A DNA stretch of 47,843 bases, from assembly GCA_024508855.1 (NCBI GenBank), contig JANINJ010000033.1, forward strand, positions 1-47,843. Direction: 5' to 3'. Positions 22,689-24,488 of this stretch are shown one piece after another. The stretch comes from Xanthobacteraceae bacterium (GTDB lineage: Bacteria > Pseudomonadota > Alphaproteobacteria > Rhizobiales > Xanthobacteraceae). Position numbers and translations under genes: made by a program. Below the pieces are notes generated by a model that ran no database searches, had not been told where the DNA came from, and was given only the letters and a program-made list of their open reading frames with translations. Within the stretch, counting starts at the first letter, position 1. Every line of letters starts with the position of its first letter.

Positions 22689-23204
22689 TCATTTCTTGCG
22701 GAAACGATCGAGCCGAACCACCTCGGCACCTTCGCTCGGTCTGGTCGGCGGCTCGTCGTCGGGTGTCTCCGGCGTGGACGTAGCCGTTGTCAGAGCAGAC
22801 GGCGCCGGTGCGGCGGGGACATTGACCGGGGGAGTTTCGGCTGCGGGTTCGCCGGTTTCGAATTGCAGACCGAACTGAACCGAAGGGTCGAGGAAGCTCT
22901 TGATCGCGCTGAACGGAACGACCAGCCGCTCCGGAACGCCGCCGAACGACAGGCCGACTTCGAAACGGTCTTCCGTCACCACGAGGTCCCAGAACTGGTG
23001 CTGCAGGATGACCGTCATTTCTTCCGGATACTGCGCCATCAGCCGCGGCGACAGCTTCACGCCGTCGGCGGTCGACTGGAACGTAATGTAGAAATGATGA
23101 TCGCCGGGCAGGCCGTGTTCCGCTGCATCCATGAGCACGCGCCGCAGCACGCCCCGCAACGCATCGCGGGCAAGCACGTCATATCGGATAAGGTCGGTGG
23201 CCAT
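22689..23204 (-). CDS. sspB: SspB, ClpXP adaptor for ssrA-tagged proteins (alphaproteobacterial type)
   Basis: SspB binds the tmRNA-encoded tag on stalled proteins and tethers them to ClpX for degradation by ClpXP. The 171-residue product has the adaptor domain at about residues 5-115, including IRYDVLARDALRGVL, HHFYITF, and LQHQFWDLVV. An Ala/Pro/Thr-rich linker follows, and the protein ends in EVVRLDRFRKK, which matches the ClpX-binding tail of SspB proteins. ATG at 23204 (MATDLIRYD) is chosen because family similarity starts there; an upstream start at 23279 would add 25 residues. The gene for the tag itself, ssrA, lies about 200 bases upstream on the same strand. Confidence 0.9.
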   Translation of the reverse strand: MATDLIRYDVLARDALRGVLRRVLMDAAEHGLPGDHHFYITFQSTADGVKLSPRLMAQYPEEMTVILQHQFWDLVVTEDRFEVGLSFGGVPERLVVPFSAIKSFLDPSVQFGLQFETGEPAAETPPVNVPAAPAPSALTTATSTPETPDDEPPTRPSEGAEVVRLDRFRKK

Positions 23205-23402
23205 GGAGGTGATCTCGTCGCTCGTCTGGTGTTGCGGGTCGGAAATGCGGAGCAGCCGCAGCCGACTCGGCCTTTGCATATGCTACCCCGGCGTCGTCCG
23301 AAGGTCAGCAGCTACGGTCCGTAACCGCGGCATTCTCCGCAGGATACTCGCAGAAGCGTCGGACGTTCCGCGAAAACCTCGGCAATTTCGGAGCAGGGGG
23401 CG

Positions 23403-23733
23403 GAAATTGAGTGGAGGCTTCTGTTGCCAGGTGCCTCCGAACCCCGCCTAACGGAGCTTAACCCGCTAGGACTTTAAGATGGTCTTTCAAACTGCGTTAC
23501 GCAGCCTGAGCAACCGGAGCATAGTTGTCGTTTGCAACTATTGCATAGCCCGATAACGGCGGAACCATACCGAGAAAAAGCGAGCCCTTTACGCCCTCGT
23601 CGATCCTGTTTCGCCCCCGCCGAAGCCCGCTCTGTCCGAACGAAGCCGGGCTTTGGTGGAGGCGCCGGGTGCTGCCCCCGGGTCCGAATGGTTTATTACG
23701 ACGGCCATTTATTTCCATAGCCGGCGAACCGGC
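23403..23733 (-). ncRNA. ssrA: Two-piece (circularly permuted) tmRNA gene
   Basis: tmRNA rescues stalled ribosomes and adds a degradation tag. Here the gene is permuted. The acceptor piece comes first, from about 23733, and ends in CCA at 23656-23654. A 35-base spacer (23619-23653) with a 7-bp hairpin is presumably removed. The coding piece starts with GGGGGCG at 23618. GGGGGCG pairs with CGCCTCC (23664-23658) as a 7-bp acceptor stem with a G-U third pair, the alanine identity mark, followed by ACCA. The tag frame (23497-23535) encodes ANDNYAPVAQAA, with its stop codon in a CTGCG/CGCAG hairpin loop. A further stem (23413-23418 with 23433-23438) follows, then a hairpin at 23383-23409 that may end the transcript. 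The outer ends are estimates. An overlapping long open frame on the same strand is a shadow. Confidence 0.93.
23497..23535 (-). other. tmRNA tag reading frame ANDNYAPVAQAA
   Basis: The resume codon is GCA at 23535-23533, followed by 11 more codons and TAA at 23499-23497. With the alanine carried by the tmRNA the tag is A plus ANDNYAPVAQAA. It begins with the ANDN element read by SspB and ends in AA, the ClpX recognition end. It has no start codon of its own. Confidence 0.93.
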
Positions 23734-23739
23734 ACCCGC

Positions 23740-23768
23740 AATATAGGGTGGAAATCCGGGCGACAAAA
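23740..23768 (-). promoter_or_regulatory. Likely ssrA promoter
   Basis: On the minus strand TTTTGT (23768-23763) and TATATT (23745-23740) are separated by 17 bases. Transcription would begin near 23733, just before the GCCGG-CGAA-CCGGC hairpin (23720-23733) that seems to open the acceptor piece. This gives an acceptor RNA of about 80 bases, a plausible size for this RNA. Confidence 0.55.
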
Positions 23769-23873
23769 GGCCGAGTTTCAATTGTCCCGTGGGGCCGCCT
23801 GCCGCAGTTGCATGCTTGCCCGCCGGAAAATGCCGGTTGGTGGCGTCTCGCGCCCGTTCTAAATCTTCCAGCC

Positions 23874-24488
23874 ATGCCACCGGATTCGCCTCCTGCCGTC
23901 CTGAGCCAATCGTTGCCGCCATCGGAGATGCCCGCGCCCGCCATGCCCGGGCTGCTGGAGCTGTTTCTGGCATTTGCCAAGATGTCGCTAGCGGGTTTCG
24001 GCGGCGTTCTGGTGTTCGCCCGCCGCGCCATCGTCGACAAGCATCGCTGGATGACCGCCAACGAATTCAACGAGACCTTCGCGCTTTGCCATTTCCTGCC
24101 CGGTCCCAACATCGTCAATCTGTCGGTGGTATTCGGCGCGCGAATTCGCGGTGTCGCCGGCAGCATTGCGGCGTTCACCGGACTGCTCGGCCCGCCGTTC
24201 CTGATCGTGACGGCGCTGGCGATGGTCTATGCGCGTTATGGCGATCTGCCGGTGTTGCGGCGGGTGCTGGACGGCGTGTCCTGCGCCGCGGTCGGGCTGC
24301 TGTTCGCGGTTACGTGGCGGATGATGCTGCCGCTGCTGAAGCAACGCGATCCGGTTGCCATCGTCGTGCTGGTCGCGGTGTTCGTCGCAATCGGCGTGTT
24401 GCGCTGGCCGTTGCCGCAGGTGCTGCTCGTTGCGGTCCCCGCCAGCTTCGCGGCAACGTGGCTTGCACGGAAGCGGGTGGCGCCATGA
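23874..24488 (+). CDS. Chromate transporter family protein, N-terminal-type half
   Basis: The 204-residue membrane protein belongs to the CHR family, whose known members export chromate or related oxyanions. The family block LFLAFAKMSLAGFGGVLVF with FNETFALCHFLPGPNIVNLS lies near residues 25-83 and is followed by about four more hydrophobic helices. The length fits the short-chain CHR proteins that act as heterodimers, and the next gene encodes the partner with a 4-base ATGA overlap. ATG at 23874 opens a Pro-rich lead; ATG at 23928 is an alternative start. It diverges from ssrA. Confidence 0.85.
   Translation: MPPDSPPAVLSQSLPPSEMPAPAMPGLLELFLAFAKMSLAGFGGVLVFARRAIVDKHRWMTANEFNETFALCHFLPGPNIVNLSVVFGARIRGVAGSIAAFTGLLGPPFLIVTALAMVYARYGDLPVLRRVLDGVSCAAVGLLFAVTWRMMLPLLKQRDPVAIVVLVAVFVAIGVLRWPLPQVLLVAVPASFAATWLARKRVAP

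Follow-up and report, generated by a model that had tools for sequence, protein, structure and literature searches.

The window analysed here, a stretch of 47,843 nucleotides from an alphaproteobacterium of the Bradyrhizobium/Nitrobacteraceae group, almost certainly carries a complete, circularly permuted ssrA gene, single in its assembly, that would specify a two-piece, alanine-charged tmRNA tagging proteins with ANDNYAPVAQAA. The gene adds nothing new and is a typical member of its family, and an ordinary one, since the Rfam model RF01849 matched every one of the 115 genomes drawn from the class (113 of them above cut-off). Some relatives, judging from their genome sequences, appear to lack this native gene through loss and to depend on another tmRNA of a different kind.

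The permuted ssrA gene and its predicted products

An Rfam covariance search of the window matched RF01849 (alpha_tmRNA) on the minus strand at 23772-23410, over positions 1-355 of the 355 in the model and with a score of 305.3 bits (E 2.8e-88) against a gathering score of 50 bits. The model for the tRNA-like domain of all permuted tmRNAs, RF04321 (tmRNA_permuted; gathering threshold 47 bits), also matched at 23716-23497 (130.2 bits, E 2.6e-25), and ARAGORN independently called a permuted tmRNA (tmRNA*) at 23406-23749 with the tag ANDNYAPVAQAA. The feature bounds, 23403-23768, lie a few bases from those of the Rfam match (23410-23772). A preliminary description of this DNA had recognized an alphaproteobacterial circularly permuted ssrA and had suggested a search with the alpha_tmRNA covariance model; that search, in its full-length match, bears out the assignment, and the other two calls agree with it. 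The genome (5.16 Mb in 107 contigs, 99.89% complete) contains a single RF01849 match, which is the gene in the window, and its smpB lies on another contig (PF01668, 200.2 bits, G000:C74:4581-5009).

The minus strand, read directly, has the permuted order, in which a CCA-ending acceptor piece (end at 23654) precedes a spacer (23653-23619) and a piece beginning with GGGGGCG (5' end at 23618). Upstream of these is a -10-like element, CTATAT (23741-23746), the putative ssrA promoter by its sequence and the Rfam match, preceded by 17 bp by a -35-like CTTTTG (23764-23769) found by eye, at a place where the Rfam model has a conserved CUU. The acceptor RNA, of ~80 nt, would extend over 23654-23734, with its 5' end placed from the -10 element and its 3' end at the CCA; it closes with the 3' strand of the acceptor stem, CGCCTCC (23664-23658), followed by ACCA (23657-23654), as seen in both the Rfam alignment and the sequence. 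The 35-nt spacer (23619-23653), which is expected to be removed, can form by eye a 7-bp hairpin between AAGCCCG (23653-23647) and CGGGCTT (23629-23623). The coding RNA (23406-23618) is 213 nt long to the end given by ARAGORN (the Rfam end is at 23410) and starts with GGGGGCG (23618-23612), which forms all seven of the seven pairs of the acceptor stem with CGCCTCC, the third being G-U. The tag frame (23497-23535, by ARAGORN and from the sequence) reads ANDNYAPVAQAA and ends in TAA (23499-23497), and this stop codon is the loop of a hairpin, CTGCG-TAA-CGCAG (23492-23504). The acceptor end, the hairpin-bearing spacer of 35 bases, the GGGGGCG with its G-U third pair and the tag frame closed by a TAA within a hairpin had all been described beforehand, and each proved exact when the strand was read base by base.

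Expression, processing, charging and degradation are proposed here by extension from the family. A single precursor would be transcribed leftwards from about 23734, just beyond CTATAT (23746-23741), and tRNA-type processing enzymes would remove the spacer (23653-23619), so that the acceptor RNA (~80 nt) and the coding RNA (~213 nt) could pair into a tRNA-like domain. A G-U third pair in the acceptor stem confers alanine identity, and the tmRNA would be charged with alanine by virtue of that pair. Together with SmpB, the charged molecule would then enter stalled ribosomes and add the tag ANDNYAPVAQAA, and the tagged protein would be degraded, probably by ClpXP aided by the SspB that is encoded next door. 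The sizes of about 80 and 215 bases that had been forecast for the two RNAs agree with the predicted pieces (213 nt for the coding RNA and ~80 nt, as measured from the -10 element, for the acceptor RNA). Northern blots of the S. meliloti tmRNA show bands of 82 and 204 nt (PMC2245857), which the predicted lengths of ~80 and ~213 nt fit.

The ssrA-sspB neighbourhood

The gene occupies the intergenic space between the start of sspB, taken as 23204, and the inferred start of a divergent chromate transporter gene at 23874, which forms the upstream boundary of the locus. The next gene after ssrA is sspB (22689-23204, minus strand; PF04386, E 1.1e-49; start placed at the ATG at 23204 within a listed ORF of 22689-23279), which encodes the ssrA-tag adaptor. 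The chromate transporter gene (23874-24488, plus strand; PF02417, E 1.8e-37, residues 70-230) lies in an ORF listed from 23748, its start again being inferred. In tblastn searches of 29 class loci, which were the best-scoring of the class draw with the window excluded and with up to 1.5 kb of flank, sspB was found just downstream of ssrA in 21, each time on the strand and side expected, so that the RNA that writes the tag and the adaptor that reads it adjoin in most of the class loci tested (21/29). A review (PMC3985003) describes SspB as an aid in the delivery of ssrA-tagged proteins to ClpXP, a role that it has in beta- and gamma-proteobacteria and may also have in alpha-proteobacteria. Both genes flanking the tmRNA gene were described as conserved among the alphaproteobacteria compared in PMC2245857, where sspB is unnamed in the portion at hand; the S. 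meliloti tmRNA resembles that of the window, by its description in the same portion, in being permuted, in two pieces and unlinked to smpB.

Distribution in the class and family

A two-piece tmRNA of Alphaproteobacteria, now represented by RF01849, was described in Caulobacter. The window gene shares with that family the order of acceptor piece, spacer and coding piece, the G-U third pair and a tag beginning with ANDN, and shows no notable difference from it, the details of tag and spacer varying between genera. RF01849 matched 145 of 149 genomes of the family; the remaining four gave no match, even in a more sensitive pass. These four may represent assembly gaps, because three of the assemblies have no sspB either and, in the fourth, 370 bases separate a contig end from the start of the SspB match. 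In one genome of the class draw (G556) there were three RF01849 matches above the cut-off, at 185.5, 109.9 and 107.8 bits.

The sspB loci compared were the best 80 of 344 in public genomes; the labels of most of these genomes read Bradyrhizobium, Afipia, Rhodopseudomonas, Tardiphaga or unclassified relatives. In 59 of the 80, ARAGORN called a permuted tmRNA before sspB, always on the sspB strand, with 52-336 bp between the end of the native tmRNA and the SspB match. The tag is the ANDNYAPVAQAA of the window in 48 of these, ANDNFAPVAQAA in nine, and ANDNFAPVARAA and ASDNYAPVAQAA in one each. A contig end cuts the native gene in four further loci (L033, L045, L062, L074), and two genomes (L019, L021) keep it apart from sspB (native copies L083, L084). 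At L019 the DNA upstream of 3675 retains just the last bases of ssrA before sspB, following unrelated DNA that by eye resembles a recombinase gene, and that genome has kept its native tmRNA on another contig. At another locus (L186:1432-12948, in G005), ssrA and sspB are ~11.5 kb apart; the intervening DNA includes a phage capsid gene and, directly after ssrA, a tyrosine integrase, and is apparently a prophage-like element integrated at the 3' end of the tmRNA gene. The position and score of the match in G005 equal those in G053, a genome listed under the genus of the window. Five of 21 genomes searched (L173-L177, in G075, G041, G096, G160 and G111) gave an additional, partial SspB-like match, in one case with an internal stop.

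The acceptor stem is identical in 74 of 76 distinct native sequences of the family, one of the others having a compensatory pair and one being unparsed by our script. Covariation within the family says little, because the G-U pair, the acceptor stem and the tag hardly vary among native copies. The stop hairpin is kept in a fixed register in 59 of 75 native copies, and among the other 16 there are 12 that can, by eye, pair one base out of register as CCGC-GTAA-GCGG.

Probable loss of the native gene and a divergent second tmRNA

The native ssrA is missing from 15 of the 80 sspB loci (L012, L014, L017, L022, L032, L035, L042, L053, L055, L056, L059, L061, L066, L075 and L081). Each of the 15 genomes has a full-length RF01849 match elsewhere, at 154.8-180.5 bits, and the tag of this divergent permuted tmRNA, where ARAGORN read it, follows the pattern ANDNV(A/R/S)(L/M)NEVRLAA. 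ARAGORN reported ANDNVALNEVRLAA, ANDNVRMNEVRLAA or ANDNVSMNEVRLAA in 14 of the 15; the copy in Afipia birgiae (L099), which drew no ARAGORN call, has by eye the same body and tag as the other divergent copies. Many of the 15 displaced loci come from metagenome-assembled genomes, a label that Tardiphaga robiniae Vaf-07, Bradyrhizobium sp. NFR13 and Afipia birgiae do not carry. Divergent tmRNAs away from sspB are found at loci L085-L100, L113-L130, L137-L153, L180 and L181.

Like the gene of the window, the divergent tmRNA is permuted and exceeds the cut-off of RF01849 with a match along the whole model, and the copies printed by ARAGORN share the acceptor stem GGGGGCG/CGCCTCC. It differs in its RF01849 score (143-181 bits, whereas complete native copies reach 255-322 bits) and in its coding-RNA body and tag, and by eye it has no CTGCG-TAA-CGCAG hairpin. 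Among the 149 family genomes, 128 have the native type only (including G019, counted there on a partial match of 196 bits), 12 the divergent type only, five both and four neither; where the two types coexist, in those five genomes, it is the native gene that adjoins sspB. When the divergent tag pattern was sought with up to three mismatches in 397 genomes of the order, it was present in six, all of them in the family, which had supplied 19 of the 397.

Traces of the native gene persist at some displaced loci. Partial RF01849 matches of 26-47 bits lie upstream of sspB in five displaced genomes (G001, G003, G007, G008, G014) and in G040. Of these six remnants, cmscan with an E limit of 0.01 listed three (L101, L102 and L017:4736-4853) but not those in L012, L032 and L154. 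By eye, L012, L017, L032, L035 and L061 retain parts of the promoter-side hairpin, of the 3' pseudoknot or of both, the middle being gone, and at several Tardiphaga loci only a TATAT promoter-like piece is left before the sspB leader. A tree of SspB, built from 76 of the 80 loci, implies seven changes to account for the displaced state, of which at least two are forced by well-supported branches; the native gene was therefore probably lost more than once. A search of open-licence papers for ANDNYAPVAQAA, NEVRLAA and second or two ssrA/tmRNA genes found no report of such a replacement.

The existence of these relatives raises the question of whether the window copy might itself be a relic, the working tmRNA being a second, divergent one. 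The 15 of 80 related sspB loci that are without the corresponding gene and have a divergent tmRNA elsewhere, and the occurrence of both types in five of the 149 family genomes, give this idea some footing, but the window genome has only one RF01849 match, where divergent copies, at 143-181 bits, would have been seen, and the window copy is complete, unlike the remnants in relatives. We consider a relic very improbable.

Still less credible, to the point of being nearly negligible, is that the region is a protein gene whose resemblance to a tmRNA is incidental. The preliminary description had the tmRNA hidden under open reading frames, and the long frame that ends at the tag stop does exist, as a mechanical ORF of 158 aa that stays open over 23497-23973 on the minus strand; the tmRNA is nevertheless not hidden, because two standard tools call it at once. 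A Pfam search of the 158-aa frame matched no family, and the stretch that is open above the same stop varies from 28 to 242 codons across 62 related copies (189 in the window), findings on which we rejected the protein-gene reading of 23497-23973. Part of the frame also overlaps the beginning of the chromate transporter gene on the other strand, and the E value of the tmRNA match, given above, further opposes a coding role. It is thus not a conserved gene and no rival to the tmRNA; its overlap with the tmRNA is an accident, and the annotation of the genome should carry a two-piece RNA here rather than the 158-aa ORF.

Sites and possible origin of the divergent gene

Of 18 divergent loci, ten have a tRNA gene within 1.7 kb of the tmRNA (Gly-CCC in five, Ser-TGA in four, Arg-CCG in one) and four of those ten have it within 120 bp, a count made without a chance control and over loci that, within one genus, are not independent. 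By their neighbouring ORFs, which are mostly group-specific, the divergent loci fall into four groups (L114/L115/L121/L124/L126; L113/L118/L122; L116/L120/L125/L128/L130; L123/L127), and L117, L119 and L129 stand apart. None of 20 divergent loci, of 16.5-20 kb each, contains sspB. These several separate sites suggest mobility of the divergent gene. When PF00589 integrases were sought in 18 genomes, the nearest among the matches listed was ~22 kb from the divergent gene (G058), so that these matches point to no carrier element.

The window gene had no similar DNA in phage records at E 1e-5, and its tag pattern was not found in IMG/VR as an exact degenerate pattern; for the divergent tmRNA there were six partial matches in plasmids (27-55% of the query) and a single one, weak and also partial, in phage records (36% of the query). 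In a quick tree of 165 rows, 28 divergent rows joined three viral rows with a support of 88, a grouping flagged as long branches meeting, and leaving out the viral rows in quick trees changed the neighbours of the divergent group. A more careful tree of 85 of the 165 rows comprised 14 of 28 divergent, 13 of 25 native, all 25 class and 33 of 87 viral rows, with 12 long viral rows kept out of the random draw; here all divergent rows cluster together (99/96), and their cluster is placed with three viral rows (98/91). On the data of the careful tree a clade of divergent and family-native genes was not rejected (p-AU 0.166), and with the 165-row set the tree constrained to unite divergent and native genes outscored the unconstrained quick tree by 69 log units (p-AU 0.918). 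The RLAA ending of the tag is no marker here, as ordinary alphaproteobacterial tmRNAs carry RLAA as well. A phage origin of the divergent tmRNA is perhaps indicated, and is a lead, not a result.

We lean, if only slightly, towards a scenario for Bradyrhizobium/Nitrobacteraceae in which a second permuted tmRNA, with another tag, would have taken the place of the sspB-linked one on more than one occasion. On this comparative reading of genomes, the newcomer, perhaps derived from phages, might have inserted at several places in the chromosome, many of them close to tRNA genes, coexisting with the native gene at first and later becoming the sole copy, as the native gene decayed upstream of sspB and SspB was kept. 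Proteins rescued in these cells would therefore bear a new tag, while the adaptor stayed the same, and some sister lineages of the window bacterium would have broken the ssrA-sspB pair and now carry another tmRNA. Should the replacement be confirmed, such lineages represent natural experiments that show how a housekeeping RNA for ribosome rescue can be swapped together with its degradation tag, and how an adaptor copes with a new tag.

Two-piece tmRNAs of phages, as described for phage Melnitz (PMC9004378) and as seen on viral contigs, are permuted like that of the window and have other tags. Phages of B. elkanii with a tmRNA are also on record (PMC12656738). Many of those on viral contigs share an acceptor and T-arm sequence of the window type, which is the basis of their selection, the loci (at least 200) having been chosen by an alphaproteobacterial-type acceptor pattern. 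Of the 200 listed, at least 112 carry a permuted tmRNA by ARAGORN, with very varied tags of up to 31 residues. One viral contig (IMGVR_UViG_3300028800_001569; L184/L185), in which a search with RF01849 at E up to 1 gave no match, has 17 tRNA genes, a TROVE/Ro60-like gene with a sub-threshold Y-RNA-like match beside it and, by eye, a small ATG-led frame that reads MNANDNVGMNEVRLAA.
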